Of a stretch of DNA of 64,000 nt, positions 9,939-56,948 are shown piece by piece. Both the position numbers and the translations under genes were made by a program. This DNA comes from Dyadobacter tibetensis Y620-1 (GTDB lineage Bacteria > Bacteroidota > Bacteroidia > Cytophagales > Spirosomataceae). The notes below the pieces were generated by a model. That model was not told where the DNA came from and ran no database searches. It was given only the letters and a program-made list of their open reading frames with translations. Within the stretch, counting starts at the first letter, position 1; each line of letters opens with the position of its first letter. The stretch lies in the NCBI RefSeq assembly GCF_000566685.1, contig NZ_AZQN01000001.1:1-64000 (forward strand), given 5' to 3'.

Positions 9939-9984
9939 ACCATTGGGATAGCTAATTCCTCCATTTAAATTTGAATTCAGAATA

Positions 9985-11598
9985 ATGATGAAAAAATTGA
10001 CAATTTTAGTTCGAACCGTACTTCGCGGCCTTCCTATATCCCTCGTCCTCGTCCTTTGGGGAATGATTGTTGAGGCGCAAAAGCGACCCAATATTATCTA
10101 TATTATGTCCGATGACCACACCTCGCAGGCTATAGGCGCCTATGGTGGGAGGTTGGCAACACTTAATCCCACACCCAACATCGATCTGTTGGCGAAGGAA
10201 GGGATGTTATTTGAGAATGCCTTTTGCACCAATTCAATCTGTACACCAAGTCGGGCCAATATCATGACTGGCCAGTATAGTCAGACCAATGGTGTGCTGG
10301 ACCTGGATGGTATTTTGCCTCCCGAAAAGCAATATCTACCATTAGAAATGAAAAAATTAGGGTATCAAACCGCTATGATAGGGAAGTGGCACCTTAAAGA
10401 AGAGCCGGCTGCCTTCGATTTTTACAAGGTTTTGCATAGCCAGGGAGAGTATTTTGACCCCAAATTTAAAGATAATACGAAAGGGAAATGGCCCAATAAT
10501 TATACCCATACCAAGGGATATGTCTCCGATGTGATTACCGATCTTACTCTCGATTATTTGGACAAAGTGGATAAGTCGAAGCCATTTTTTTTAATGCATC
10601 ATCACAAGGCACCACATGACGACTTTGAATATCCCGAGCGTTATGAAACCTACTTGGCCGATACTTTTATTCCCGAGCCTGCCAATATGTATAGCCAACC
10701 ATTCTTTGGATCGGAAGGAACCCTAGGTCGTCATGGAACATTAAAACATAGAATTGGGACTTCGGTTTCGGGGAGACATCCCTACAGAAGTTACCTCAGA
10801 CAATACGGCTTGGACACCATTCGGAATGAGGCCGCAGGCACTTCAGCTGCTTACCAGATGTATCTCAAAAAATACTTACGCTGCGTTAAGGGTGTTGATG
10901 ATAATTTAGGTAGATTGTTTGCCTACCTAAAGAAGAATAACCTCTGGGATAATACTATTATTATATACACGTCAGATCAAGGGATGATGCTGGGGGAACA
11001 CGACTATATGGACAAACGGTGGATGTATGAAGAGTCAATGCGTATGCCTTTCGTGGTTAAAAATGTTAAATCGGCTCAGGCGAATACACGTACCAGTGCC
11101 ATGATAAACAATACGGATTTTGCACCCACCCTACTAGAGTTGGCGGGGGGGAAGATACCTACTTATATGCAAGGAGAAAGTTTTACCAAGGTTCTGAAAG
11201 AACCTAAAGAGCAATTCCGTAAATCGACTTACTATCGCTACTGGATGCATTTGACACATCATGATATTCCAGCTAATTTCGGATTGCGGACGGACAAGTA
11301 CAAATTGATTTTCTATTATGGAGCTCATTATTTGCCTGAGCTTTATGGACAAAACACAATGGCCTGGCATAAGGATCCTAGTAATTCCTATCATTTTGAG
11401 CCCACTCCTGCCGCCTGGGAGTTTTATGATTTATCGTTGGATGCCGAGGAGACAATTAACCGTTATAAGGATCCCCGGTATAAGGATATAATAGCCGACA
11501 TGAAAAAGGAATTGATGGCTCAGCGCGAGAAATATAAGGAGACAGATACGCAATATCCCCATATCCAAAGTGTAATTGAGAAACATTGGAACGACTAA
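9985..11598 (+). CDS. Family S1 sulfatase (formylglycine type)
   Basis: This 537-residue exported sulfatase has an N-terminal signal segment (to about residue 31, VEAQ), the metal-binding block IMSDDH, and the formylglycine signature CTPSR with Cys86. GKWHLK and TSDQGMMLGEHD are further S1 active-site blocks. A maturase must convert Cys86 to formylglycine; none is encoded in this window. It should remove sulfate esters from galactan fragments made by the GH86 enzyme 46 bases upstream, for example from L-galactose-6-sulfate in porphyran (inferred). The end lies close to the mutarotase start (11610), consistent with one operon. Confidence 0.9.
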   Translation: MMKKLTILVRTVLRGLPISLVLVLWGMIVEAQKRPNIIYIMSDDHTSQAIGAYGGRLATLNPTPNIDLLAKEGMLFENAFCTNSICTPSRANIMTGQYSQTNGVLDLDGILPPEKQYLPLEMKKLGYQTAMIGKWHLKEEPAAFDFYKVLHSQGEYFDPKFKDNTKGKWPNNYTHTKGYVSDVITDLTLDYLDKVDKSKPFFLMHHHKAPHDDFEYPERYETYLADTFIPEPANMYSQPFFGSEGTLGRHGTLKHRIGTSVSGRHPYRSYLRQYGLDTIRNEAAGTSAAYQMYLKKYLRCVKGVDDNLGRLFAYLKKNNLWDNTIIIYTSDQGMMLGEHDYMDKRWMYEESMRMPFVVKNVKSAQANTRTSAMINNTDFAPTLLELAGGKIPTYMQGESFTKVLKEPKEQFRKSTYYRYWMHLTHHDIPANFGLRTDKYKLIFYYGAHYLPELYGQNTMAWHKDPSNSYHFEPTPAAWEFYDLSLDAEETINRYKDPRYKDIIADMKKELMAQREKYKETDTQYPHIQSVIEKHWND

Positions 11599-13578: not shown

Positions 13579-13599
13579 GGTATATTTAGATAGGTTGGC

Positions 13600-15114
13600 T
13601 TATGGCCTTACTTCTTTTTCTACCAGATAGAAGTCGTCGAAGTAGTAGGAGCCTGCCTCAGGAAGGTGAATATACAAGTATCTCCCATTGGGATCTCCTT
13701 CGTATTTGATTTCTCGTGTAATAGTTTCCCATTTACCTGTTTTCACATTGGCTATGCTGGTCCAGAACTGCTGCCAGTTGGGGAGTATCCAGGTATTAAG
13801 CGATTTGGCAGGAGAATTGGCGTCGATCCATACCTTATAGCTATATACATAGGTAACTCCGTTTTTGAGGCTAAATGGCGCCTTTTCACTGGTAAACCCT
13901 CCAGCTCCCGAAGTAACATCCACTTTAAGGCTATAGCTTCCGCTGGCAGCCTTAGCCGTGGTAAATTCGTATGAGGCGGTATTGGTGCTATAGGGTACCC
14001 ATCCTGTGCCCGCTCCTTCAAATCCATAAACGGATGCAGGAAGCAGATTGACATCATGCATGATCACGGGTTGGTTGGAGAAGGGCTGGACTTCTCTTTC
14101 GTCTACCGACTTCATACCACTTCCGGGCAACAAACTAACGGTTATGACATCGGGACGGTATATTTTTTCGACGAGCTTAATGTCCAAATTAGTTTTGTTT
14201 GCCAATACGGATTGAACCTTGAAGGCTTGTCCATTCACTTTTACCTCAACAAAATTCACTTTATTGGAAAAAGCAGCAAACTCTCCGTTGAAGGGGACTT
14301 GTATAGTCTCATTCTCCAGCTCCCGAATGGCACCGGTAAGAACGAATGGTTTTGAAGACTTAATCACCTTGATTGGGTTGGGGATTTTAATAAAATCACC
14401 ATCGGGAGGAATATTTAGTCCGGTACGGCTGGAATTAAAAGTAGCATTAAAAACACCCAAGGAATTGAAAGCTATAGAAGCTACCGAATCTGTGCTTGAA
14501 ATGCTTCCAATAGTCCAGCGACGCGTATCGGGTCTACCGATTGTAGTTAGGTCGACAAACTCCAATTTACCTCCAGCCTCTACAAAGATGGTATCTTTGG
14601 AAAGTGGGCGAACCACACCGTCTTGTCTGATTTCTATCTGGGGTACAATGGTATCGTATACATCCACCATAAAGGTCTTGTCGATCACCCAGACATTACC
14701 TTCTTTAACCGAATGAAGCGTGTCCAACCCTCTGAAGGTCACTGAATCTGGAAAGGTATTTCTAAGCCTTACAGTTTGTATCCCTCCCTTTTTGAAATAC
14801 ACATGAACGGTAGGATCAGAGGAGACCAAGCCAGCATCCTTTTTTATGAATTTTTCAAGAACCGTGTCTCTTCGTGTGATGACACCTTCAAGGAAATGAT
14901 TCCCTTCACTAATTTCCCAGGTATGGGTCAGGGTGTTTTGAGAGACATCCGTAAAAGAAATGAAGTCGTCGATGCCGATTTTAAATGTTTGTTGCGTGAA
15001 GTTGCTGGTATACCAGCCCACATCTGAAAAGCTGCTGGGTTCTACATATTCCCTGGAGCATCCCACCAGTAAGGTGACGAATGCCAGTAGTAGGGTGGTT
15101 ATATTTTTTTTCAT
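13600..15114 (-). CDS. Surface glycan-binding lipoprotein with C-terminal CBM-like domain
   Basis: Start at 15114 (MKKNITTLLLAF) gives a lipoprotein signal with lipobox LLVGC, so a 504-residue surface lipoprotein. It sits directly behind susC and susD, the usual position of SusE/F-like or PKD-containing surface glycan-binding proteins. About residues 30-290 look like tandem beta-sandwich domains; the last 150 residues (from VYGFEGAG to YYFDDFYLVEKE) resemble a carbohydrate-binding module of the galactose-binding type. It should hold polysaccharide at the outer membrane for the SusCD importer. No enzyme motif is seen. Confidence 0.75.
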   Translation of the reverse strand: MKKNITTLLLAFVTLLVGCSREYVEPSSFSDVGWYTSNFTQQTFKIGIDDFISFTDVSQNTLTHTWEISEGNHFLEGVITRRDTVLEKFIKKDAGLVSSDPTVHVYFKKGGIQTVRLRNTFPDSVTFRGLDTLHSVKEGNVWVIDKTFMVDVYDTIVPQIEIRQDGVVRPLSKDTIFVEAGGKLEFVDLTTIGRPDTRRWTIGSISSTDSVASIAFNSLGVFNATFNSSRTGLNIPPDGDFIKIPNPIKVIKSSKPFVLTGAIRELENETIQVPFNGEFAAFSNKVNFVEVKVNGQAFKVQSVLANKTNLDIKLVEKIYRPDVITVSLLPGSGMKSVDEREVQPFSNQPVIMHDVNLLPASVYGFEGAGTGWVPYSTNTASYEFTTAKAASGSYSLKVDVTSGAGGFTSEKAPFSLKNGVTYVYSYKVWIDANSPAKSLNTWILPNWQQFWTSIANVKTGKWETITREIKYEGDPNGRYLYIHLPEAGSYYFDDFYLVEKEVRP

Positions 15115-39321: not shown

Positions 39322-40335
39322 ATGAAAGCAACCGTATATCAGGGGAATAAAACTTTCTCCGTGGTGGAAAACCCTATAGAGGAGCCAAAGGAAGGTGAAG
39401 TAAGGATTAAAGTAGCATACGTAGGAATTTGTGGAACCGATGTTCATGTCTATCATGGGAATATGGACAAAAGGGTTCAAATACCCCAAACGATCGGGCA
39501 CGAAATGTCGGGGGTAATCGATGCAGTAGGCCCTGGTGTCACCGACATAGTCGTAGGTGATAAAGTAGTGGTAAGGCCCCTTGACGACCGGGCACAACAG
39601 GCTTCTGATAAGGGTATCAGTCATATTTGTGAGAAGTTGAAGTTTATTGGCGTGGACAGTCCGGGAGCTATGCAGCAATACTGGAATGTACCAGCATTTA
39701 CCATACACCAGTTACAGCCAGAAACTGACCTGAAGTTAGCAGCACTCACCGAACCCTTGGCGGTGGCATGCCATGATGTCCGACTAAGTGAATTGATCGC
39801 TGGTGAGACAGCGGTGGTCTTAGGGGGTGGGCCTATCGGTCTGCTTATTGCTAAGGTAGCGGCGCGTAAGGGTGCTCAGGTTATTATTTCGGAAGTGAAT
39901 GAAGCCAGGGTCCAGATTGCACAGGACTTGGGTTTTACCGTAGTTAACCCTATGAACCAAGATATTCAGGCCTATGTACAAGAGGTTACTGATGGACGAA
40001 AGGCTGATGTTGTATTTGAGGTTGCAGGCGTCCAGCCCTCTGTAGATATCATGACCAAACTGGCAGGAATTAGGGGTCGTGTGGTCATGGTAGCCATCCA
40101 CGCCCAGCCCAAATCGGTAAACTTATTCGATTTTTTCTGGAAGGAACTTCGATTGATCGGCGCAAGGGTTTACGAAAAAGAGGACTACGAAGAGGCTATT
40201 CAGTTGATAACTGAAAATGAGCTAGCCTTCGAGAAATTAATTACAGAGGTTCTTCCTTTAGATTCGATTCAGGAAGCATTTGAGTCTATAGATAGGAATC
40301 CTGCCGGAATAAAAACACTTTTGAAGTGTCAATAA
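39322..40335 (+). CDS. MDR alcohol dehydrogenase, candidate 2-keto-3-deoxy-L-galactonate 5-dehydrogenase
   Basis: The 337-residue enzyme is a medium-chain zinc alcohol dehydrogenase: catalytic-zinc residues in CGTDVH (Cys37) and GHEMSG (His60, Glu61), Rossmann motif VLGGGPIGLL. Relatives include threonine, sorbitol and L-galactonate 5-dehydrogenases. The usual four-cysteine structural-zinc lobe is missing (only HICEKLKF has a Cys), which is seen in some family branches. Placed directly before a KduD-like reductase and the AHG genes, it fits the oxidation of 2-keto-3-deoxy-L-galactonate at C5 in the known anhydrogalactose pathway. L-galactonate is a second plausible substrate. Confidence 0.78.
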   Translation: MKATVYQGNKTFSVVENPIEEPKEGEVRIKVAYVGICGTDVHVYHGNMDKRVQIPQTIGHEMSGVIDAVGPGVTDIVVGDKVVVRPLDDRAQQASDKGISHICEKLKFIGVDSPGAMQQYWNVPAFTIHQLQPETDLKLAALTEPLAVACHDVRLSELIAGETAVVLGGGPIGLLIAKVAARKGAQVIISEVNEARVQIAQDLGFTVVNPMNQDIQAYVQEVTDGRKADVVFEVAGVQPSVDIMTKLAGIRGRVVMVAIHAQPKSVNLFDFFWKELRLIGARVYEKEDYEEAIQLITENELAFEKLITEVLPLDSIQEAFESIDRNPAGIKTLLKCQ

Positions 40336-40348
40336 AACAAAAATAATA

Positions 40349-41119
40349 ATGAGTATATTAAACAAATTTAGCCTGGCTGGGAAGACGGCCTTGGTAACGG
40401 GATGTAAAAGAGGAATCGGAAAGGCCATGGCCGTTGCCTTGGCAGAAGCAGGGGCCGATATCATTGGAGTAAGTGCCTCCCTGGAAACGAAGGGAAGTGA
40501 GGTTGAAATGGCTGTACGTGCCACTGGGAGAGAATTTGCTGGCTACAGTTGTGATTTTTCGGATAGGAAGGCATTGTATCATTTTATTGCTCGGGTAAAG
40601 ACCGATTTTCCTGTTATCGACATTCTGATCAATAATGCAGGCACCATTCTCCGTGCCCCGGCTGCCCAGCATAATGACGAGTTATGGGATAAAGTGATAG
40701 AGATAAATCAGAATGCTCAGTTTATTCTTACCCGTGAAATTGGGAAGGAAATGGTGGCGCGTAAAAGTGGAAAAATTGTATTTACAGCCTCTTTGCTAAC
40801 TTTTCAAGGGGGGGTTACCGTACCAGGATATGCAGCTAGCAAAGGGGCAATTGGCCAGCTTACCATGGCTTTCGCTAACGAATGGGCATCTCAGGGTGTA
40901 AATGTTAACGCATTGGCACCAGGTTATATCAACACAGATAATACTGAGGCCTTACGGAATGACCCAGAACGGTCCGTTTCCATTTTGTCACGTATCCCGG
41001 CGGGTCGCTGGGGGGAACCCGAAGACTTTTCGGGCCCGGTCGTTTTCCTTTGTTCCGAAGCAGCCAGCTATATGCATGGCACCGTAATGCTTGTAGACGG
41101 AGGTTGGATGGGGCGTTAG
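40349..41119 (+). CDS. KduD-like SDR, candidate 2,5-diketo-3-deoxy-sugar-acid reductase
   Basis: This 256-residue short-chain dehydrogenase has the cofactor motif TGCKRGIGKA, NNAGTI, the active-site Ser in TASLL and YAASK. It is close in style to KduD (2-dehydro-3-deoxy-D-gluconate 5-dehydrogenase). Run in the reducing direction, such an enzyme turns 2,5-diketo-3-deoxy-galactonate into 2-keto-3-deoxy-D-gluconate. With the dehydrogenase 13 bases upstream this would invert C5, as in the established route for anhydro-L-galactose. It is part of the 38097-43718 operon. Confidence 0.82.
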   Translation: MSILNKFSLAGKTALVTGCKRGIGKAMAVALAEAGADIIGVSASLETKGSEVEMAVRATGREFAGYSCDFSDRKALYHFIARVKTDFPVIDILINNAGTILRAPAAQHNDELWDKVIEINQNAQFILTREIGKEMVARKSGKIVFTASLLTFQGGVTVPGYAASKGAIGQLTMAFANEWASQGVNVNALAPGYINTDNTEALRNDPERSVSILSRIPAGRWGEPEDFSGPVVFLCSEAASYMHGTVMLVDGGWMGR

Positions 41120-41167
41120 GTAGGTACAATAATTCAATAGAAATTCATTCAAGTCCATATTATTCTC

Positions 41168-42622
41168 ATGTCTGAAATTAAGCAATATGAACTCTTCATC
41201 AATGGAGAGTGGGTGGCTCCGCTGAGTGGGGAGTCGCACCGGGTTACAAGTCCTACCGACGAATCGTTGGTGGGTGTGGTCGCCAGAGGCGGAGAAGCCG
41301 ATGCCCACCGTGCCCTGGAAGCCGCTGAAGCGGCACAGCGCCTTTGGAAAAAAGTCCCTGCAAAGCAACGTGCTGAGCTGATGAGAAAGTTTGCTGCCGA
41401 AATTCGCGCGCAGAAGGGAAATCTTTCACAGTTGCTCGTCAGAGAGCAGGGAAAACTGATTGGAGTTGCTGAAATGGAAGTGGAAGTAACGGCTTCGTTT
41501 ATAGAATATGCCTGTGATGGGGCCCGCAGTATTGAAGGAGATATCGTACCATCCGACAATCCTAATGAACAGATATGGATCAACAAAGTGCCTCGTGGTG
41601 TGGTAGTGGCCATTACGGCATGGAATTTCCCACTCGCACTGGCTGGTCGTAAATTGGGGCCTGCTTTAATTGCCGGGAATAGTATCGTAATCAAGCCTAC
41701 TGAAGAAACCCCACTCGCCACCTTAGAACTGGGTAATATCGCTCTTAAAGTAGGACTGCCCAACGGTTTGTTGAATATTGTAACGGGCACTGGAAGGATT
41801 CTTGGTGAAGCACTGGTAGGGCATCCCATTACAAAAATGGTTAGTATGACTGGGAGTACACGGGCAGGGCAACAAATTTTTAGAACCGCAGCCAATCACC
41901 TTATACACGTCCAATTAGAATTGGGTGGCAAGGCACCCAGCATTGTTTTTGCCGATGCCAATCTAGACCAGGCAGTAGAATCAACATTTCATTCCCGATT
42001 TGATAATTGTGGCCAGGTTTGTACTTGTAATGAGCGGATGTATGTTCATGAAGCCATTTATGAGGAGTTTATGATAAAATTTATGGCCAAAGTCAAGGCT
42101 CTGAAGCTCGGTGATCCCATGGACCCGTCTACCACGATAGGTCCTAAAATCAATGCTTCGGAACTGGCCAATATGGAAAGATTGGTCGCTGTCTCACTAG
42201 AGGAAGGCGCCGTCCTGGCAAGTGGTGGTAAAAAACCCACAGGGGCCGGATTTGAAAAAGGATATTGGTTCGAGCCTACCATTCTGACCAATGTAACCCA
42301 GGAAATGACCATCGTACACGAAGAAGCGTTTGGTCCAATACTCCCTGTAATTAAATTTCAGAATTTCGATCAGGTAATAGGATATGCCAACGACTCGGAG
42401 TACGGATTGGCGGCTATGATTTTTACCAAGGACATGCGCACCATCATGCGCTGCAAGGATGAACTGGAATGTGGGGAGATTTATGTCAACCGTGGCCATG
42501 GGGAGCAGCACCAAGGCTTTCATAATGGTTATAAACATAGTGGAACGGGAGGAGAAGACGGTAAATATGGGTTGGAGCAGTATCTGGAAAAGAAAACCTT
42601 TTATGTAAATTATAATGACTGA
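41168..42622 (+). CDS. Aldehyde dehydrogenase, candidate 3,6-anhydro-L-galactose dehydrogenase
   Basis: This 484-residue NAD(P)-dependent aldehyde dehydrogenase has [17 protein letters not shown], the active Glu in LELGGKAPS and the catalytic Cys in [11 protein letters not shown]. It resembles lactaldehyde/glycolaldehyde dehydrogenases (AldA), the group that includes characterised anhydrogalactose dehydrogenases. It should oxidise 3,6-anhydro-L-galactose to the aldonic acid. It overlaps the cycloisomerase gene by 8 bases, which supports sequential steps. Confidence 0.85.
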
Positions 42623-43718
42623 AATAGATACGCGAATACAAAGTGTTGATGTGCAGCTGTTTCGTGTGCCACTCCCTGAAATTTTAAGTGACGCAAAGCA
42701 TGGAGATCACAGTCATTTCGAGCTGATAACGACGACTATTACATTGGCTGATGGCAGCGTCGGAACGGGTTATACCTATACCGGAGGTAAGGGGGGGCAT
42801 GCGATCAAAGCCATGGTGCTATACGACATTGTTCCAGCCCTTTTAGGAAAAGATGGTGTTCAGATAGAGGAAATCTATGATTTTCTTGAGTGGCATCTCC
42901 ATTATGTAGGACGGGGTGGAATTGCTTCATTCGCCGTATCTACGGTAGATATTGCCTTATGGGATATCCGGTGTAAAAAAGCTGGTAATCCTCTCTGGAA
43001 AATGGCCGGTGGAGCAGATAATAGCTGTAAGGCATATTGTGGAGGAATAGATCTCCAATTTCCTATCGACAAATTGCTAAGAAATATAACCGGATATCTG
43101 GAAGCCGGTTTTAATGCGGTAAAAATAAAAATAGGGCGGGAGAACCTGGACGAAGACATTGCTCGAATTAAGGCGGTGAGGGAATTAATTGGTCCCGATA
43201 TTACCTTTATGGTCGATGCTAACTACTCTATGAGTGTGGAGAAGGCCATTGAAGCTGCCCGACGATTCGAACCTTATGATATACTTTGGTTCGAAGAACC
43301 CACTATCCCTGATGACTATAAAGGTTATGCCAGGATTGCCGAAGCAACGGGTATGCCCTTGGCCATGGGTGAAAATCTGCATACGATTCATGAATTTGAG
43401 TACGCATTTGAGCAGTCAAAATTGTCATACATTCAGCCGGATGCTTCAAATTGTGGAGGAATTACCGGATGGCTGAAGGCGGCAAGGTTAGCAAAAATGT
43501 ATCAGATTCCCGTATGTTCTCACGGCATGCAAGAGCTACATGTCAGCCTGGTATCCGCTCAGCCCAATGCAGGCTGGCTGGAAGTGCATAGCTTTCCTAT
43601 CGACCAGTATACCACCCGTCCATTGGTTGTTTCTAACTTCCGGGCGGTTGCTTCCGACGAGCCAGGAATAGGAGTTGATTTCGATTGGCAGAAACTCGAA
43701 CCATATCGTGTGGTCTAA
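42615..43718 (+). CDS. Enolase-superfamily enzyme, candidate 3,6-anhydro-L-galactonate cycloisomerase
   Basis: This 367-residue member of the mandelate racemase/muconate cycloisomerase group has the full catalytic set: AVKIKIG (KxK), MVDANYS (Asp), FEEPTIPDD (Glu), MGENLHT (Glu) and CSHGMQE (His). In agar degraders the enzyme of this family opens the anhydro ring of 3,6-anhydro-L-galactonate to 2-keto-3-deoxy-L-galactonate. The 8-base overlap with the aldehyde dehydrogenase and the following transporter support that role. A general sugar-acid dehydratase is the alternative. Confidence 0.88.
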
Positions 43719-49100: not shown

Positions 49101-49733
49101 ATGATTAGTCATAGTGATTTAAGTCAGCTGGCATTTCTGGAATTAAAACGTCAGATTCTTAATGGTGAGCTAGCCAGGGGTGAGAAGCTCGTTCAGGAAC
49201 GTATTGCTGAGCAATTGGGCATTAGTCGTATGCCGCTTCATAAGGCCTTTCAGATGCTGGAGGGAGAGTTTCTTGTGGAAGCCATACCACGACGTGGTTA
49301 TTTTGTTAAGAAATTTGAGTTCCAGGAGTTGATAGATGCCTTCGAGTGCCGGGAAGTCCTAGAAGGACTGGCCGCTCGCAAATTAGCCCTACGTCCCGAT
49401 CACAAGGATATCGCAGAAACCTTATTCGCTATTTTCGAGCCCTTTGTCAACCAAAGGAATATTGATTCGGATGCCTATAGGCTACAAGATCAATTATTCC
49501 ATAATACCATCAGGAGACTGTCGGACAACGCCGTACTTAAAAAACTAGATGCATTAGGTAATTATCTTCAGATGACTTTTTCATTGGGCCTGGTACGTCA
49601 ACCTATAGAAACGCTTCATGAGCATTTGTCGATTATAGATGCCATCAGAAAAGGCGATGGTGAGCGCTCGGAAGCCTTGATACGGATGCATGCAAATAAA
49701 ACCATTCAGAAACTAGTAAATACGAATCAATGA
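49101..49733 (+). CDS. GntR-family (FCD-type) transcriptional repressor
   Basis: The 210-residue protein has an N-terminal winged helix (LKRQILNGELARGEKLVQERIAEQLGISRMPLHKAFQ, family-typical) and a C-terminal all-helical FCD ligand domain (FECREVLEGLAARKLAL, DQLFHNTIRRLS, EHLSIIDAIRKGD). FCD regulators usually sense sugar acids or other carboxylates. It heads the 49101-56948 operon and overlaps the next gene by 4 bases (ATGA). Its promoter carries a palindrome, and so does that of the araC-type gene, so it may link two parts of the locus. Confidence 0.92.
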   Translation: MISHSDLSQLAFLELKRQILNGELARGEKLVQERIAEQLGISRMPLHKAFQMLEGEFLVEAIPRRGYFVKKFEFQELIDAFECREVLEGLAARKLALRPDHKDIAETLFAIFEPFVNQRNIDSDAYRLQDQLFHNTIRRLSDNAVLKKLDALGNYLQMTFSLGLVRQPIETLHEHLSIIDAIRKGDGERSEALIRMHANKTIQKLVNTNQ

Positions 49734-50782
49734 AAACGTACAGTATAGCCGTAATAAATGGCGATGGAATAGGACAGGAAATTGTACCCCTGGCAGCGCA
49801 AGTCATGCAGGTTGCCGCATCCAAGCACGGCATTCAAATGCAAACCACGAATTTCCCATATGGCGCCGGTTACTATATGGAGCATAGTGATTTTATGTCT
49901 CCCGAAGGTTTGGGAGCACTGAAAAAGTTTGACGCCATCCTATTTGGTGCCGTTGGGCTTCCCGAGGTTGATGACACCCTTCCCTTCAAAATGTTTACCA
50001 ATAAGGTTCGAACCGCATTTAAACAATATGTAAATTATCGTCCGGTCCGGTTGTTGGACGGAGTTCAGAGTCCACTCCGGAATAAAACCCAGGAGGATAT
50101 TGATTTTATCGTAGTAAGGGAGAACAACGAAGGCGAATTCGTTCAAAATGGCCGACAGATGTACCCTGATGAATCCTACGGATTTGCTACGGATACTAGT
50201 CTTTTTACTCGAGTAGGTATTGAGCGAATCGCTCATTATTCATTTCAACTTGCCAGAAAGCGTAGAAGTAAAGTTACCAATGTCACCAAATCCAACACCA
50301 TGATTAACACCTTGGCCTATTGGGATCGTGTGATACAGGAAGTTGCCGACCAGTATCCAGACGTTGCATATCACAAAATGTATATTGATGCGGCCACGGC
50401 CAATTTTGTTCTTCATCCGGAGTATTTTGATGTGGTACTTACAACGAATATGTTAGGAGATATTTTGTCGGATCTGGGAGGAGCCATCATGGGCAGTTTG
50501 GGTTTTGGACCCAGTGGAAATATCAATCCGGAAAAGACTTTTCCTTCAATGTTTGAACCCATTCATGGTTCGGCACCAGATATCGCTGGTAAGGGGATTG
50601 CTAATCCCATAGGGCAGATTTGGTCAGTCGCTATTATGCTTGAACATTTGGGAGAGAAAGAAGCCGCCACCTCCATTATATCGGCCATTAACCAAACCAC
50701 GGCCGAAGGTATTTTGACCAGTGATGTAGGAGGAAAGAGCTCGACCCGGGAGGTAGCTCAAGCTATTATCGATCGGATATGA
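49730..50782 (+). CDS. Tartrate/isopropylmalate dehydrogenase-family beta-decarboxylating dehydrogenase
   Basis: This 350-residue enzyme has NGDGIGQEIVP, VVRENNEGEF, and the metal-binding DAATANFVLHPEYFDVVLTTN with MLGDILSDLGG. The family (isocitrate, isopropylmalate, D-malate and tartrate dehydrogenases) oxidises a 2-hydroxyacid and removes CO2. It is closest in style to tartrate/D-malate dehydrogenases. Its partners are a DUF1537 kinase and a cyclase-type hydrolase, so the substrate may be a four-carbon sugar acid or its phosphate. Overlaps on both sides (4 bases) show tight operon coupling. Confidence 0.82.
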   Translation: MKTYSIAVINGDGIGQEIVPLAAQVMQVAASKHGIQMQTTNFPYGAGYYMEHSDFMSPEGLGALKKFDAILFGAVGLPEVDDTLPFKMFTNKVRTAFKQYVNYRPVRLLDGVQSPLRNKTQEDIDFIVVRENNEGEFVQNGRQMYPDESYGFATDTSLFTRVGIERIAHYSFQLARKRRSKVTNVTKSNTMINTLAYWDRVIQEVADQYPDVAYHKMYIDAATANFVLHPEYFDVVLTTNMLGDILSDLGGAIMGSLGFGPSGNINPEKTFPSMFEPIHGSAPDIAGKGIANPIGQIWSVAIMLEHLGEKEAATSIISAINQTTAEGILTSDVGGKSSTREVAQAIIDRI

Positions 50783-51405
50783 GAGCCGTAGATCTTACTT
50801 TGCCTTATTCGGAAAAGTTGAGAGGATTTGCTCAGAAGCCAGCCAAAACCTTACTTCAGGATGGCTGGAATGCAACTACATTGACCATCTATTCTCATGC
50901 CGGAACCCATATGGATGCTCCTAAACACTTTGGTGTTGGTACCCAGTCCATAGATCAATTCGATGTTTCCCGGTTTATAGTAGAGAAAGCGTGGGTAGTC
51001 GATTTGAGCCACGTTGCTGAAAAGGCATTGTTAGAGGTGCAGGACCTTGGGACTATTCCGGAAAAGCTAGTCCCGGGGGATGCTATTTTACTACGAACCG
51101 ATTGGTATCTTCGTCTGGGGACGGAGGCTTATCGGGATATGCTTCCCCGGATCAGTGAGGAGCTGGCTCATTGGATAGTTGACAGAGGAGTCAGTATAAT
51201 AGGGGTGGAAACACCCTCTGTGGCCGATGTTCATAATCTGAAAGAGGTAACTCGAATTCATCAGATATTACTTGAAACAGTGATCATTATTGAAGGTCTA
51301 GCTTTCTTAGATGCCATTGATCAACCCTACGTCAAACTTCTGGCTTTTCCATTAAAAATCGAAAATGGGGATGGCGCACCCTGTAGGGTTATTGCGCTTC
51401 AGTAA
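50779..51405 (+). CDS. Cyclase-family metal-dependent hydrolase
   Basis: The 208-residue protein belongs to the putative cyclase / kynurenine formamidase-like family; the metal motif is HAGTHMDAPKHF. Characterised members hydrolyse amides or lactone-like rings. Within this operon a role in opening a sugar lactone made by the Gfo/Idh/MocA oxidoreductase is a reasonable idea but unproven. It overlaps the dehydrogenase gene by 4 bases; an 82-base gap follows before the kinase gene. Confidence 0.82.
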   Translation: MRAVDLTLPYSEKLRGFAQKPAKTLLQDGWNATTLTIYSHAGTHMDAPKHFGVGTQSIDQFDVSRFIVEKAWVVDLSHVAEKALLEVQDLGTIPEKLVPGDAILLRTDWYLRLGTEAYRDMLPRISEELAHWIVDRGVSIIGVETPSVADVHNLKEVTRIHQILLETVIIIEGLAFLDAIDQPYVKLLAFPLKIENGDGAPCRVIALQ

Positions 51406-51487
51406 TTGGATTTTACTCTGACTGAAAAGTCTGGCTTGTTTTGGAAATTCAAGGGTTCGTATACATAATACCGTTAATTCGTAACGC

Positions 51488-52783
51488 ATGTCATTCACAA
51501 GAACGATTATTGTCCTGGACGACGATCCTACAGGAACGCAGACAGTGCATCATATACCGGTTCTGACGGGCTGGTCGGACCGAGAAATTCAGGAGGAATA
51601 CGAAAGAGGAACAGCATTGTTTTTTATTCTAACCAACAGTCGTGCCTTTTCTCTTAGCGAGGCAAAGAAGATCAATTATGACATCGGCAGGGTCATTGCA
51701 AATCTGCCGGGCCCTACTTGGATCATCAGTCGGGGGGACTCTACATTAAGAGGACATTTTCCTGGTGAAACGGATGCTCTCTCCGAGGGTTTAGGCTGGG
51801 GGACCGACTTTTTATACGTATTAATTCCAGCCTTTTTCGAAGGGAAGCGTTTCACCCATCAAGATATACACTATCTGATAGAAGGGGGGGAATGGGTGCC
51901 AGTGGGAGAAACTCCCTATGCCAGGGATTTAAGTTTCGGATTTAAAAGTTCCAATCTGCGAGACTGGGTCATGGAAAAATCCCAGGGAAGCATCGGGCCC
52001 GATCAGATTCATTCACTCAGGGTAGAGGATTTGGAAGCGATGAATTTGGAGGAAATACGTGAAAGAATACTTGAGACGCCCGCCTTACTGATTGTCAACG
52101 CACTCGGTCCAAAACATCTCGACCGGTTTGTAGAAGCAGCGGAGGGCTGCGATCGGCGGATAATATTTCGAACTGCAGCCTCTTTTGTAGCATCGGCAGG
52201 CCATATCTCTCAGCAAGAACTTCTAACCAGTAAGGACTTAAAAGCTGAAATAAAGGGTAATGGAGGTGGGTTGGTGGTTGTAGGCTCTCATGTCCCCAAA
52301 ACCAACGCACAGCTAAAGGTATTATTGAAAACCGATATTATAGGCGTCGAATTTGAAGTTATTAAATATTTTAACCATCCCCATACCTATCTGACAGACA
52401 TAGTCCATAAAGTGGAAAAGCATCTCAAATCTGGTATGCATGTAGTACTTTACACGAGTCGGACAGTGCTTGCCGGCTCTGACGAACAGGATAGCCTGCA
52501 TGTAAGCACAAAGATATCTGAAGGGCTGGTAGCGGTGGTGGCAAACCTAGCAACTCACCCTTCATTTCTGATAGCCAAAGGAGGAATCACTTCCAGTGAT
52601 ATTGCTACCAAGGCCCTATCGATCAAGAGGGCACTGGTACTTGGTCAATTATTGCCTGGCGTTCCCGTATGGGAGGCCGACGCCACCTCACGCTTTCCTG
52701 GATTGCAATATGTTATTTTTCCGGGAAACGTTGGTGAAGAAGACAGTTTGTTTCAAGCCTATCAAAAAATACGAAATGACTAA
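51488..52783 (+). CDS. DUF1537 four-carbon sugar-acid kinase
   Basis: This 431-residue kinase has the N-terminal DDDPTGTQTVH motif, SRGDSTLRGHF, and in the C-terminal nucleotide-binding domain GSHVPKTNAQL and KGGITSSDIATKAL. Characterised family members phosphorylate threonate, erythronate or 3-oxo-tetronate at O4. Such kinases usually pair with a PdxA2-type dehydrogenase or an aldolase; here the only candidate is the isopropylmalate-dehydrogenase-like gene. The 3' end overlaps the MFS gene by 8 bases. A GTATAC-centred site at about 51457-51468 lies upstream and may be a weak operator. Confidence 0.88.
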   Translation: MSFTRTIIVLDDDPTGTQTVHHIPVLTGWSDREIQEEYERGTALFFILTNSRAFSLSEAKKINYDIGRVIANLPGPTWIISRGDSTLRGHFPGETDALSEGLGWGTDFLYVLIPAFFEGKRFTHQDIHYLIEGGEWVPVGETPYARDLSFGFKSSNLRDWVMEKSQGSIGPDQIHSLRVEDLEAMNLEEIRERILETPALLIVNALGPKHLDRFVEAAEGCDRRIIFRTAASFVASAGHISQQELLTSKDLKAEIKGNGGGLVVVGSHVPKTNAQLKVLLKTDIIGVEFEVIKYFNHPHTYLTDIVHKVEKHLKSGMHVVLYTSRTVLAGSDEQDSLHVSTKISEGLVAVVANLATHPSFLIAKGGITSSDIATKALSIKRALVLGQLLPGVPVWEADATSRFPGLQYVIFPGNVGEEDSLFQAYQKIRND

Positions 52784-54032
52784 ACTGCCCACCCGTTACC
52801 GACTAGTTGCTACCACGTTTTCTCTGACCATCCTGTTATATATCGATAGGGTGTGTATCTCGGCGGCCAAGGATCCAATAACGGCGGGATTAGGCTTATC
52901 CGACACTCAATTTGGCTGGATATTATCGGCCTTTGCCCTTGGCTATGCCTTATGTCAGACTCCTTCGGGGCAGTTGGTAGATAGCAAAGGCCCCCATCTG
53001 GTATTGGCAGTAATTGTGTCGTTATGGTCGATCATGACCGCGTTGACCGCTTCAGCCTGGAACTATCTGTCTATGCTGATTATTAGATTCCTTTTTGGAG
53101 CGGGGGAGGCGGGGGCTTTTCCCGGAATTTCCAAGTCCACGCTGGCCTGGATCCCCCTCTCTGAAAGGGGAATAGTGACCGGTATCAATTTCTCTGGTAG
53201 TCGGTTGGGCGCAGCCTTTGCCATGCCTTTGGTAGTGATTATGTTAGATGCCTTTGGCTGGCGCTGGACCTTCATTTTGCTAGGGGCCATTGGAGTAGGG
53301 TGGGCATTGTACTGGTATTGGTGGTTTCGTGACAGTCCGGAAGATCACCCATCTGTCAGTGAAAAGGAATTGGACCTTATATTAAAAAACCGTCAGCAGA
53401 TTGAGCGACATACCAAAATGTTGCCCATGCGGAATCTTTTGGCCAATGCTCCCGTATGGTGGGCCATGCTTCAATATTTTAGTAGTAATTATATCTTTTT
53501 CTTCTGTCTTACCTGGCTCTTTCCTTTCCTGAAAACCAAGTATCAGATGGATGATCTGGAGGTGAGCTATTGGGTTATGTTGCCATTCCTTGCCGGTGCA
53601 CTAGGTAATTACTTTTCTGGGTTTTTGGTAGATTATTTATTTAAAAATTTAAACCTTACCCGTTCTCGTCAAGTGCCGGCCATCATCGGGTTTTCTCTTA
53701 TTGTTTTAGGATTATGGGGTAACCTCTATACTTCTACCATTTATGGATCTATTGCCTGGTTATCGCTCGCAATTTTTGGGGCGGATATGACCTTGAGCCC
53801 TTCCTGGTCCTACTGTATCGATGTTGGAAGAGAATATGCAGGAACCCTGTCGGGCACCATGAATATGGCGGGAAACTTGGGTTCCTTTTTGACTGCCCTC
53901 GCTTTTCCCTATCTACAAGCCTGGACGGGAGATGAAGATACCTTTTTCTACGTGGGAATAGGATTGGCCCTAGTGGCTATTTATAGTTGGACGCAAATGA
54001 ACGCAGCATTTCCGCTGAAAAATAATGAATAA
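52776..54032 (+). CDS. MFS anion:cation symporter (hexuronate/sugar-acid transporter type)
   Basis: Start at ATG 52776 (MTKLPTRYRLVATTF) overlaps the kinase end by 8 bases. The 418-residue, twelve-helix protein resembles ExuT/GudP/DgoT-type transporters (ILLYIDRVCISAA, LGLSDTQFGWILSAFALGYAL, RFLFGAGEAGAFPGISK). It is expected to import a sugar acid, which agrees with the FCD-type regulator and the kinase. Confidence 0.9.
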   Translation: MTKLPTRYRLVATTFSLTILLYIDRVCISAAKDPITAGLGLSDTQFGWILSAFALGYALCQTPSGQLVDSKGPHLVLAVIVSLWSIMTALTASAWNYLSMLIIRFLFGAGEAGAFPGISKSTLAWIPLSERGIVTGINFSGSRLGAAFAMPLVVIMLDAFGWRWTFILLGAIGVGWALYWYWWFRDSPEDHPSVSEKELDLILKNRQQIERHTKMLPMRNLLANAPVWWAMLQYFSSNYIFFFCLTWLFPFLKTKYQMDDLEVSYWVMLPFLAGALGNYFSGFLVDYLFKNLNLTRSRQVPAIIGFSLIVLGLWGNLYTSTIYGSIAWLSLAIFGADMTLSPSWSYCIDVGREYAGTLSGTMNMAGNLGSFLTALAFPYLQAWTGDEDTFFYVGIGLALVAIYSWTQMNAAFPLKNNE

Positions 54033-55047
54033 ATTGAAAGGAGTAGTGATAGGTGCCGGCTATTTTAGTGATTTTCACTATGATGCCTGGTCGCGAATGC
54101 CAGAAGTAGAGATTCTGGCTTTGGCCGATACCAATTGTCAGAACGCCAGATTGATGCAAGAAAAATATAAAATCGAGGCTGTTTACGAGGACTATCTGCA
54201 CATGGTCATGGAGATAAAGCCAGATTTTGTAGATATTGTGACCCCCCCAGCTACCCATCTGGACATCGTATCTGAGCTTGCAGGGATGGGTATCCCTATG
54301 ATCTGTCAGAAACCCCTGGCACCTAGCTTGGAAGAAGCCAAACAGTTGGTAGGTTTGGTAGAATCGACGGCTGTGCCCTTTATGGTTCACGAAAATTTTC
54401 GCTTCCAGCCCTGGCACCAGGAGATTCAAAAATTAGTGGCAGAAGGCACCATCGGGGAAATTCATAACATAAACTTTCATTCTAGAATGGGAGATGGCTG
54501 GGGGCCTGATGCCTACCTGTCTCGTCAGCCCTATTTTCGGGAGTATGATCGACTATTAATTTATGAAACAGGAATCCATTTTATTGATTTGATACGCTTC
54601 TATGGAGGAGAAATAGTAGCGGGGATGGCCAAAATCCGTAGACTCAATCCTGCAATACGCGGTGAAGATAGGGTGCTTATGCATTTTGAAACGGAAAGAG
54701 GTATCTGGGCACAGTGGGACGCTAATCGGTACAACGAGCCCGATACTTCCAATAGTAGATATACCTTTTGTAGAATGGAAATTGAAGGGTATCAAGGTAC
54801 CATAGGATTGGATTATCAAGGTAATATTACAATTCAGAAATTGGGACAACTAAAGGAGCAGCATTCTTACAGCCCCAGCAACCAAGGTTTCGCAGGGGAC
54901 AGTTGTCTGGCTACTCAACGACATTTTATCCAGGGGTTATCAGGTGGTGCCAAATTCGAAACCAACGGGTTATTTTATTTGGAAAATCTTAAAATTCAAG
55001 AATTGGCCTACCAGTCGGCTATAGAGGGGCAGCCATTTAAAGTATAA
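54025..55047 (+). CDS. Gfo/Idh/MocA-family oxidoreductase
   Basis: The 340-residue NAD(P)-dependent enzyme has a Rossmann start (GVVIGAGYFSDFHYDAW), ICQKPLAPS in place of the common EKPLA (Glu to Gln) and the C-terminal beta-sheet domain with FINL-like YETGIHFIDLIRFYGG. Family members oxidise or reduce sugars and cyclitols. It could form a lactone or a keto-sugar feeding the hydrolase and kinase of this operon. It overlaps the MFS gene by 8 bases and is followed by the DUF5060-type gene after 23 bases. Confidence 0.85.
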   Translation: MNKLKGVVIGAGYFSDFHYDAWSRMPEVEILALADTNCQNARLMQEKYKIEAVYEDYLHMVMEIKPDFVDIVTPPATHLDIVSELAGMGIPMICQKPLAPSLEEAKQLVGLVESTAVPFMVHENFRFQPWHQEIQKLVAEGTIGEIHNINFHSRMGDGWGPDAYLSRQPYFREYDRLLIYETGIHFIDLIRFYGGEIVAGMAKIRRLNPAIRGEDRVLMHFETERGIWAQWDANRYNEPDTSNSRYTFCRMEIEGYQGTIGLDYQGNITIQKLGQLKEQHSYSPSNQGFAGDSCLATQRHFIQGLSGGAKFETNGLFYLENLKIQELAYQSAIEGQPFKV

Positions 55048-55070: not shown

Positions 55071-56948
55071 TTGATGATGATGCATAACACCAAAATTAAT
55101 GTTGCTTTTGCTTTGCTCTGCTTCCTGATGGCAGGTGTAGGCCTTGCGATGGGGCAAGGAACCGTGACAGGTAAAAAATGGGATAATACTACCCTAGATT
55201 TTCAGGGGCCTGCGACCTCTGAGTTGGCTATGCCCAATCCGTTCACTTATTACCGCCTCGACGTAACGTTTACCCATGAAGACGGTCACCCGATCATGGT
55301 TGTTCCGGGCTATTATGCCGCAGATGGAAAGGCTGGGAATTCTTCGGCGAACACAGGGAATATTTGGCGTGTACACTTTGCCGCCCCTAAAACTGGAACA
55401 TGGAAATATAGTGTTAGTTTCAAAGCGGGTGAAATGGTAGCCGTACAGGATAACGGAGTTTCTGCCGGCTTTATGGATGGAGAAGAGGGAATTCTGCACA
55501 TAAGCAATGCCAACTATAAATTGCCGGATAATCGGGCAAAAGGTCGCCTGCAATATGTAGGAAAGCGTTATCTGAAATGGGCCGAGATCGACCGCCCCTT
55601 CCTGAAAACAGGAGCCGACTCCCCCGAGAATATGTTACATTATGCCGATTTTGATGGTACGTTGGATGCCTATGGCAAGTTAGGAAAGCAATATTATCGG
55701 TTGATGAAAGACTGGGCACCCCATCAAGGGGATTACGAACCGTCAGCAGCCGAGTACACCTGGAAAAACGGTAAAGGGAAAAATTTACTTGGAGCCATTA
55801 ATTATCTTTCCAAGGTAGGGGTAAATGCCATATCCTTTCTAACGATGAGCATCGATGGTGACGATGGAGGGGTATACCCTCATCTGGTAAAAGATGATAG
55901 TGTTTTTATTGCCAGGTCTCAGGAATCCCGTTCTTGGATAAATGCCGTGCATCAGCAGCGTTTCGATTGCTCGAAACTCGACCAGTGGGAGAGAATTTTT
56001 GCTTATGCCGAAAGTAAAGGCATGTTTTTACATTTCAAAACCTTTGAAAACGAGAACGTGTGGTTGATGGGGACCAAGGAGTTAACCATGGAAAGGAAGC
56101 TTTACTACAGGGAGTTAATCGCACGCTATGCTCATCATTTGGCGTTGAACTGGAACCTTAGCGAAGAGACTAACGTCGATGTTGCCCTTATCAAGAAAAC
56201 CGCATCATATATTCGACTAATTGATCCCTATCAGAATCATGTGGTGCAGCATACCTTTCCTCTGGGGCATGGTAAGGGCACGCAAAAACCTACCTATGAA
56301 TACTACTATCCAAACCTAGTAGGACAGCAGTCAGAACTGACTGGCGCCTCCTTACAATTGCAGGTAGATGACATTTACACCGAGGTAAAACGATGGGTGC
56401 TGGCTTCAGCGAAAAGTGGCAAGCCCTGGGTGGTGGCCAATGATGAGCAGGGCGGAGCAGGAGTAGGGGTAACTGTAGACGAAAACTTCCCTGGTTATAC
56501 CGGTAAAATGAAACTCGATAACCGAGATATGGTTCGAGATAAGGTATTATGGGCAACCTTTATGGCTGGTGGAGCAGGAGTGGAATATTATTATGGCTAT
56601 GATACAGAACAGAATGATCTTAATGCCCAGGATCATAGAAGTCGGGAGAAGAAATACCAGGATGCGGCTGTTGCCCGGAAGTTTTTTGAAAGTATCGATG
56701 TGGAATCACTTCAGCCTCTTGACGATGCCTATGCAGGCAAAGGGAATTATGCTCTTGGTAACGATAGTTTAGTCCTTATCTATATGCCAAAAGGGGGAGC
56801 TGCTTCCGTTCAGTTGGAAGGTAAAAATTGGAAGGGAATGGTGGTTGATCCGAAAACAGGGAAGACCATTAAGCAAATAAGTATAGCAGGCAACAAAATT
56901 TCGGCACCTAATTCCAGCCAGGACTGGGTAGTTGTCATCCGGAAATAG
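55071..56948 (+). CDS. DUF5060-domain putative glycoside hydrolase
   Basis: The 625-residue exported protein (signal to GLAMGQG) has an N-terminal DUF5060 beta domain (about 30-125, NPFTYYRLDVTFTHEDGHPI), a TIM barrel (about 150-510, GVNAISFLTMSIDGDDGGVYPHL, NWNLSEETN) and a small C-terminal putative collagen-binding-like domain (PKGGAASVQLEGKNWKG). Glu in NLSEETN and the acidic WVVANDEQGG could be catalytic. It is the intact relative of the broken gene at 36084. Substrate unknown; linkage to the sugar-acid operon suggests a galactan or uronide side-group. Confidence 0.78.
   Translation: MMMMHNTKINVAFALLCFLMAGVGLAMGQGTVTGKKWDNTTLDFQGPATSELAMPNPFTYYRLDVTFTHEDGHPIMVVPGYYAADGKAGNSSANTGNIWRVHFAAPKTGTWKYSVSFKAGEMVAVQDNGVSAGFMDGEEGILHISNANYKLPDNRAKGRLQYVGKRYLKWAEIDRPFLKTGADSPENMLHYADFDGTLDAYGKLGKQYYRLMKDWAPHQGDYEPSAAEYTWKNGKGKNLLGAINYLSKVGVNAISFLTMSIDGDDGGVYPHLVKDDSVFIARSQESRSWINAVHQQRFDCSKLDQWERIFAYAESKGMFLHFKTFENENVWLMGTKELTMERKLYYRELIARYAHHLALNWNLSEETNVDVALIKKTASYIRLIDPYQNHVVQHTFPLGHGKGTQKPTYEYYYPNLVGQQSELTGASLQLQVDDIYTEVKRWVLASAKSGKPWVVANDEQGGAGVGVTVDENFPGYTGKMKLDNRDMVRDKVLWATFMAGGAGVEYYYGYDTEQNDLNAQDHRSREKKYQDAAVARKFFESIDVESLQPLDDAYAGKGNYALGNDSLVLIYMPKGGAASVQLEGKNWKGMVVDPKTGKTIKQISIAGNKISAPNSSQDWVVVIRK

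Follow-up and report, generated by a model that had tools for sequence, protein, structure and literature searches.

A conserved operon joining a DUF1537 kinase to an isopropylmalate dehydrogenase-type enzyme, with a proposed route through oxo-tetronate

Introduction

Which compound is broken down by an operon in which a DUF1537 kinase is joined by an isopropylmalate/tartrate dehydrogenase-type (IPMDH-type) enzyme, a cyclase-family hydrolase and a Gfo/Idh/MocA oxidoreductase (Gfo), and in what order would these enzymes act? The question is raised by the first 64,000 nucleotides of contig NZ_AZQN01000001.1 of Dyadobacter tibetensis Y620-1 (the window, i.e., the whole stretch analysed), part of a genome of 5.3 Mb in 33 contigs with a single DUF1537 gene. 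Five genes, all open and on the + strand, make up the system: the IPMDH-type dehydrogenase (49730..50782; PF00180, 313.1 bits), the cyclase-family hydrolase (50779..51405; PF04199, 96.5 bits against a cut-off of 23.1), the DUF1537 kinase (51488..52783; PF07005, 145.6 bits, and PF17042, 124.6 bits), a major facilitator superfamily (MFS) transporter of the ACS/D-galactonate type (52776..54032; PF07690, 180.8 bits) and the Gfo oxidoreductase (54025..55047). Dehydrogenase and cyclase genes overlap by 4 bases, kinase and MFS genes by 8 and MFS and Gfo genes by 8, and the sole gap, of 82 bases, precedes the kinase gene. This layout had been described in an earlier note on the same DNA, and the open frames of the window bear it out. 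The answer that we favour, and hold with about even confidence, is that the operon serves the breakdown of a small sugar of furanose type, which would enter glycolysis via the oxo-tetronate node. The sequences show directly which genes are present, that they are conserved, that some are swapped, that a Tyr has become Phe and that PdxA2 is absent; each reaction, the order of the steps and the identity of the sugar are what we infer from them.

A conserved gene set

Loci were collected by scanning named genomes with an alignment of Gfo proteins. The 80 loci retained are the best of 551, and the counts therefore describe close relatives of the Gfo protein rather than all bacteria. The working set of 85 loci consists of 76 of these 80 plus 9 earlier loci in which the Gfo gene was recognised; the other four scan loci have no recognised Gfo open frame, and the window itself and locus L033, where no Gfo gene was recognised on the piece examined, also stand outside the 85. 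A single-protein scan of named genomes with the kinase returned no relative, and it was the Gfo alignment scan that did.

The exact order dehydrogenase, cyclase, kinase, MFS, Gfo is found at 36 of the 85 loci, every one of them in Bacteroidota. If only the Gfo, cyclase, PF00180 dehydrogenase and kinase genes are asked for, in one run on the same strand, the count rises to 48, comprising five Planctomycetota, one Balneolota, one Verrucomicrobiota and otherwise Bacteroidota. Other Gfo loci, including those of KSB1, Thermodesulfobacteriota, Acidobacteriota and Pseudomonadota, hold a partial set or none on the DNA examined. The organisms represented include Zobellia, Maribacter, Algibacter, Tamlana and Rhodopirellula. 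The gene set is thus a real conserved unit, and the reading of it as one pathway, made in the earlier note, is supported.

Closer to home, the kinase query matched 34 of 200 genomes drawn from the same family, and contiguous dehydrogenase, cyclase and kinase genes stand at 6 of 30 loci examined (window counted). The linkage also exceeds chance among 395 genomes drawn from the phylum: six, counting that of the window, have a cyclase orthologue of 47% identity or more, and in five of the six, again with the window, all five genes are present. In one of the five, a draft genome (L079, 9136-10490), two overlapping frames make up the kinase, probably through a frameshift or an assembly error. In the sixth (L078) the other four genes were not found on 20 kb; its lone cyclase gene (9963-10601) stands where L076, of the same genus, has the whole module, and looks like the remnant of a decayed one.

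A kinase swap and the order of the steps

By its sequence, the window kinase belongs to a DUF1537 subfamily distinct from OtnK, DtnK and OiaK. It scores 50.5 bits on the D-threonate kinase (DtnK) equivalog (cut-off 450) and 48.5 on the 3-oxo-tetronate kinase (OtnK) equivalog (cut-off 350), has no match to the OiaK model at E 0.001, and is ~20% identical to OtnK and OiaK. Identity reaches 40-45% with kinases that adjoin D-erythronate dehydrogenase or GarR-type dehydrogenases.

Over the 85 loci the kinase is of the window type at 56 and OtnK at 9, eight of these with OtnC; 20 have neither on the DNA examined, and none has both. Equivalog scoring, which covered 2 of the 8 loci with OtnK and OtnC, gave 526 and 540 bits for the OtnK (cut-off 350) and 319 and 324 bits for the OtnC (cut-off 250) of two planctomycete versions (L133 and L163, respectively). 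The same exchange is seen in other company. In Sulfitobacter mediterraneus, a trio of dehydrogenase, Gfo and GntR genes faces an operon with an annotated OtnK and a protein above the OtnC cut-off (299.7 bits against 250). Rhizobium gallicum and Agrobacterium have a related dehydrogenase beside annotated otnK and otnC, with no such Gfo gene. Because OtnK and OtnC can stand in at loci of this dehydrogenase, the simplest reading is that its product is an oxo-tetronate, either as released or as a tautomer.

A small gene of the ABM fold accompanies the swap. It is present at 7 of the 9 OtnK loci and at none of the 56 with the window's kinase, and also occurs in Marinovum, Sulfitobacter and both rhizobia. 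The only NCBIfam match of the R. gallicum protein is LsrG, a ketol isomerase (42.5 bits, under the cut-off of 135), and the ABM protein is perhaps an isomerase. The kinase swap, together with an LsrG-like gene that appears only in the swapped form, argues that the dehydrogenase acts before the kinase, on the free acid, and probably makes 2-oxo-tetronate. At L133, one open frame (13584-15113) joins an LsrG-like ABM domain to an IPMDH-type dehydrogenase, possibly an isomerase-dehydrogenase fusion.

Two routes of L-threonate breakdown offer a comparison. According to the passages on them in PMC12540250, one runs through LtnD, OtnI, 3-OtnK and an Aldolase_II-type 3-OtnC, and the other skips the isomerase and uses LtnD, 2-OtnK and an F_bP_aldolase-type 2-OtnC. 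If the dehydrogenase makes 2-oxo-tetronate, the split among the modules would mirror these two routes: the window's kinase would use 2-oxo-tetronate directly, and OtnK would need an isomerase first. We therefore propose, from sequence relationships, that the window kinase is a 2-oxo-tetronate kinase. Relatives at 37-39% identity lie beside genes of the class II fructose-bisphosphate aldolase (FBA) type in Deinococcus and Rhodococcus, and a relative in the same family (L038) lies beside a D-erythronate dehydrogenase-type gene; both settings agree with this reading.

Loss of a catalytic tyrosine in two dehydrogenase lineages

The β-decarboxylating dehydrogenases carry a catalytic Tyr that protonates the enol after decarboxylation. 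The window dehydrogenase has Phe137 (EGEF) where the structure 3flk has this Tyr (EGEY), a change that the earlier note had missed. Phe occupies the position in 49 of 49 enzymes of the window's clade that reach it (50 rows; the truncated frame of L117 has a gap there) and in 20 of 20 enzymes of a second, LEU3-like lineage found in the same type of locus. Tyr is kept in 22 of 22 other IPMDH-type sequences, the full frames obtained from 27 loci tried. In a plasmid-borne set, Phe is found in Marinovum, Sulfitobacter and both rhizobial OtnK loci, and Tyr, as in 3flk, in two tartrate dehydrogenases and in Aminobacter, Paracoccus and Roseomonas. R94, R104, R130, K187, D220, D244 and D248 are kept in the window enzyme and in the module members that reach these positions; the three Arg presumably correspond to the residues that hold the two carboxylates in this family.

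Trees were built from subsets of 60 and 38 aligned rows with the Phe column left out. The window's clade is separate (support 100/99) and lies beside three tartrate dehydrogenase rows, not inside them; the second Phe lineage is placed elsewhere. A single origin of Phe was rejected by the approximately unbiased (AU) test (p-AU 3e-48, 38 rows), the tested group having been chosen once the pattern was known. The 38-row tree omits Rhodococcus and Roseomonas, which form long branches in the 60-row tree, and a near-copy from Agrobacterium. Two Phe changes are needed without Rhodococcus (38 rows) and at least three with it (60 rows). Since the test rejects a common clade for the Phe enzymes and the lineages are placed apart, Phe arose at least twice. 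In these alignments the Tyr-to-Phe change tracks the pathway, with one exception: a Rhodococcus enzyme also has Phe, and neither Gfo nor OtnK was found near it. This exception weighs against the association, as does the make-up of the 22 Tyr controls, which are nearly all LeuB-type sequences from Bacteroidota.

A proposed pathway

The DUF5060 glycoside-hydrolase-like protein encoded next door (55071..56948, +; PF16586, 65.3 bits), also missed by the earlier note, has homologues at 35 of the 85 Gfo loci. It is probably secreted and may release the sugar, which the MFS protein would import. The latter scores 253.4 bits on TIGR00893, under the cut-off of 395. The Gfo protein is proposed to be a sugar 1-dehydrogenase that would oxidise C1 to give a lactone.

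Opening of this lactone would fall to the cyclase-family hydrolase, whose metal motif HxGTHxDxPxH (H40, G42, T43, H44, D46, P48, H50), H161 and E172 are each kept in at least 97% of 67 rows, and which stays below the arylformamidase model TIGR03035 (83.8 against 223.05). The alphaproteobacterial loci of Marinovum and Sulfitobacter (L088 and L204) show no cyclase on the stretch examined and instead encode a metallo-β-lactamase-fold protein close to N-acyl homoserine lactone (AHL) lactonases, 77% identical between the two. Lactone opening is suggested because two unrelated hydrolases occupy like neighbourhoods. The proposal of the earlier note that the cyclase-type hydrolase is a lactonase, which we share, gains indirect support from this substitution.

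The dehydrogenase would then oxidise the C2 hydroxyl of the free acid to give 2-oxo-tetronate. In the form that we prefer, the acid would be a C3-carboxylated tetronate (a hydroxymethyl tartrate) and its oxidation would come with decarboxylation. A diacid is favoured by the kept R94, R104 and R130, and by two Arg in the Gfo protein that an ApsD-type protein lacks. The DUF1537 kinase would phosphorylate 2-oxo-tetronate at O4, and an unlinked decarboxylase would yield dihydroxyacetone phosphate (DHAP) and CO2, a candidate being one of three PF01116 (class II FBA-family) proteins encoded away from the operon in this genome, which have the fold of the known 2-OtnC. Elsewhere, the last two steps would be taken by the LsrG-like isomerase, OtnK and OtnC via 3-oxo-tetronate. 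The earlier note had made the dehydrogenase the only decarboxylating partner of the kinase; the operon indeed holds no other, but on the present scheme another enzyme may decarboxylate as well.

Put in full, the scheme would start from an apiose-like, C3-carboxylated tetrofuranose, with two dehydrogenase lineages recruited independently, each with Tyr changed to Phe, and with the LsrG-like isomerase replacing OtnI in one branch. In this detailed form it is a tentative proposal, possible rather than probable.

Several observations count against the favoured scheme. On the side of the substrate, we are aware of no abundant glycan that contains a tetrose or a C3-carboxylated tetrose, nor of a C3-carboxylated tetrofuranose as a common glycan unit, and the two extra Gfo Arg also occur in the Gfo proteins of Antarctobacter and Aminobacter in another gene context, so that they mark a wider clade. 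On the side of the gene set, L036 has kinase, MFS and Gfo genes without dehydrogenase or cyclase on 12 kb up to a contig end, three OtnK loci (L128, L136 and L140) have neither a cyclase nor an AHL-lactonase-type gene, no ABM gene was detectable at two (L136 and L164), and Marinovum, with the trio of dehydrogenase, Gfo and GntR genes, shows no DUF1537 or OtnC gene within 19 kb. As to the last step, the operon has no decarboxylase gene, an FBA-type gene lies near a window-type kinase at L138 only, and the best OtnC-like protein of the genome reaches 50.5 bits against a cut-off of 250. The 2-oxo specificity of the kinase is itself read from the neighbours of proteins at 37-41% identity, and two annotated Bacillota relatives have no FBA-type gene within 8 kb.

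Alternative routes

Another route, quite possible without being probable, would have the dehydrogenase oxidise an unbranched 2R-tetronate (L-threonate or D-erythronate) to 2-oxo-tetronate without release of CO2, in place of LtnD or DenD, the Gfo and cyclase enzymes making the tetronate from a tetrose or its lactone. It ends at the oxo-tetronate node, and the loss of a Tyr that aids decarboxylation fits a plain dehydrogenase. L-threonate and D-erythronate are both 2R, like the known substrates of the dehydrogenase family, and the nearest kinases outside the module adjoin GarR-type genes or D-erythronate dehydrogenase-type genes, such as that of L038 (450.3 bits against a cut-off of 325). The route leaves three presumed carboxylate-holding Arg, kept in every row that reaches them, and the two extra Arg of the Gfo protein to be explained, and it calls for a tetrose-supplying glycan, of which we know none, yet DUF5060 hydrolases accompany so many of the loci. 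L038 and two further loci of the same family (L040 and L043, where D-erythronate dehydrogenase-type and permease-like genes were recognised by eye) show no OtnK or OtnC by tblastn, and may represent another unfinished tetronate pathway.

An unlikely alternative starts from D-apiose: the Gfo protein would make apionolactone, the cyclase would open it, and the dehydrogenase would be a second apionate oxidoisomerase, delivering 3-oxo-isoapionate to the DUF1537 kinase. The nearest solved relative of the Gfo protein, first in the structure comparison, is 5uhw, which has ligand-bound sister entries and which we take to be the structure named D-apiose dehydrogenase. A closely similar Rhizobium etli protein lies in a D-apiose-type locus with ApnL (1063.8 against 750), OiaX (785.4 against 700) and a DUF1537 kinase that most resembles OiaK (467.5, under the cut-off of 700). 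The R. etli ApnO candidate is built on a decarboxylating 6-phosphogluconate dehydrogenase scaffold (PF16896) and would offer a parallel case; PF16896 gave no match in the Dyadobacter genome, where the search controls gave none either, so that this result is uninformative. In the DUF5060 family, the Apiosidase catalytic domain PF13204 (as in GH140 apiosidase-like hydrolases) is matched by 1 of 12 relatives and, just above the cut-off, at L110 (27.2 against 26.5); the window protein does not match it. Against an apiose origin, tblastn with R. etli queries (E 1e-5) detected homologues of ApnO, ApnL, OiaX, RpiB and DhaK at 0 of 89 loci, and of TpiA at one. The swapped kinases of L133 and L163 are OtnK-like rather than OiaK-like (173 and 148 bits on OiaK), and the window kinase does not match the OiaK model. 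With its specific enzymes missing, the known apiose pathway was rejected as the same pathway and kept as a relative.

A kinase-first order, in which the dehydrogenase would decarboxylate an acid phosphate in place of PdxA2, was the scheme of the earlier note (lactone to acid to acid phosphate to triose phosphate and CO2), and we now consider it very unlikely. The absence of PdxA2, which the note had claimed for the operon, extends to the whole genome and would suit this order: the sole PdxA passes TIGR00557 (380.3 against 290.35) and fails the D-threonate-4-phosphate dehydrogenase model (237.6 against 583). The kinase also has a small advantage in score on the DtnK model over the OtnK model (50.5 against 48.5 bits). 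The substitution by OtnK and OtnC, however, leaves no place for the dehydrogenase after the kinase, and the isomerase-like gene tracks OtnK. The end point of that scheme still fits, and its order has been revised.

An ordinary L-tartrate or D-malate dehydrogenase amid unrelated genes, for which the enzyme's narrow pass on the tartrate dehydrogenase equivalog TIGR02089 (473.9 against 470.4, i.e., by 3.5 bits) would speak, is barely credible and was rejected, given the Phe in place of the catalytic Tyr, a clade apart from the tartrate dehydrogenases, the conserved linkage, and an IPMDH of another lineage in the same position in other phyla.

Regulator and neighbouring genes

The GntR regulator gene (49101..49733, +; PF00392 and PF07729, the latter an FCD domain) belongs to the same run and overlaps the dehydrogenase gene by 4 bases. 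Orthologues lie upstream of the module in L032, L033 and L035, and the protein is a probable sensor of the pathway acid, judging from its sequence.

The DUF5060 family was also followed in its other domains. Collagen_bind_2 is matched at E up to 1 in all 12 members (16.2 against a cut-off of 22 for the window protein). The structure model, from only 4 sequences, reached a predicted local distance difference test score (pLDDT) of 42, is unusable and supports no fold claim; 4n0r, a putative glycoside hydrolase and the sole PDB match of the 12-relative profile, was too weak to keep (E 0.0011). Near the module, 6 of the 85 loci encode glycoside hydrolase family 5 (GH5)-like proteins of ~360 residues that Pfam barely or does not recognise (e.g., L034 5760-6857, L037 1974-3050 and L158 3889-4995), possibly a second glycosidase of the same substrate.

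Three alphaproteobacterial plasmids (L085, L086 and L087) carry a ~40% identical Gfo gene. With it they encode a hypothetical protein of ~222 residues (no Pfam match in L085 and L086), thiamine pyrophosphate (TPP) enzymes and a protein of the sugar phosphate isomerase type; here the Gfo dehydrogenase clade is the centre of another pathway. Elsewhere in the window, positions 39322-43718 hold a row of genes for a Zn-alcohol dehydrogenase, a KduD-like short-chain dehydrogenase/reductase (312.9 against 338.85), an aldehyde dehydrogenase (530.6 against 500) and an enolase-superfamily protein. These resemble the 3,6-anhydro-L-galactose pathway, and the row, with GH16-like and sulfatase genes nearby, fits an agar or porphyran locus.

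Discussion

If the favoured scheme is right, the oxo-tetronate node of central metabolism would gain a new front end, and uncharacterised branches of the DUF1537 kinases and of the cyclase-family hydrolases a suggested function; PF00180 enzymes that annotation currently labels tartrate or isopropylmalate dehydrogenases would take on new roles. That two lineages lost the catalytic Tyr convergently gives a direct handle on the way in which β-decarboxylating dehydrogenases change their reaction. Should the sugar be a carboxylated, apiose-like unit, it would point to a component of complex glycans that chemists have perhaps overlooked, and Bacteroidota, Planctomycetota, Verrucomicrobiota and other groups would share an operon devoted to a C3-carboxylated tetrofuranose.

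In the open-licence literature, searched by title and the opening of the abstract, no paper joining these gene families was found, and we found no description of the route; the module differs from the known DUF1537 and oxo-tetronate pathways in its front end. The D-threonate pathway, made up of DtnK and PdxA2, likewise pairs a DUF1537 kinase with a dehydrogenase of the PdxA/IPMDH fold, but the window has a PF00180 enzyme in place of PdxA2, probably acting before the kinase. The D-apiose and D-apionate pathways (ApsD, ApnL, ApnO, OiaK and OiaX), reportedly worked out by Carter et al. in 2018, share a Gfo-type lactone-making dehydrogenase, a lactonase, oxidation of the free acid and then a DUF1537 kinase; they differ in the families of lactonase and oxidising enzyme, and ApnL, ApnO and OiaX are not found in our loci. 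In an L-ascorbate pathway through 2-carboxy-L-lyxonate, said to have been described by Stack et al. in 2020, a branched-diacid lactone is likewise opened, and an NAD enzyme of the PdxA/IPMDH fold decarboxylates the product, but that enzyme is of the PdxA family, the lactonase is another and so is the end product.

Two further known pathways pass through oxo-tetronates. The four-step aldolase-DUF1537 pathway of LtnD or DenD, OtnI, OtnK and OtnC (Zhang et al. 2016, as cited in the passages on it in PMC12540250 and PMC10580937) supplies OtnK and OtnC as the downstream part of the planctomycete and alphaproteobacterial modules, in which its front end is replaced and OtnI perhaps gives way to the LsrG-like ABM protein; neither OtnK nor OtnC is part of the version in the window. 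The three-step L-threonate pathway of LtnD, 2-OtnK and 2-OtnC (Guo et al. 2024, as cited in the corresponding passages of PMC12540250) resembles what we propose for the window in using 2-oxo-tetronate directly, without OtnI, and in ending at DHAP and CO2. In the window, however, the operon lacks the FBA-type decarboxylase, and LtnD would be replaced by the Gfo oxidoreductase, the cyclase-family hydrolase and the IPMDH-type dehydrogenase.

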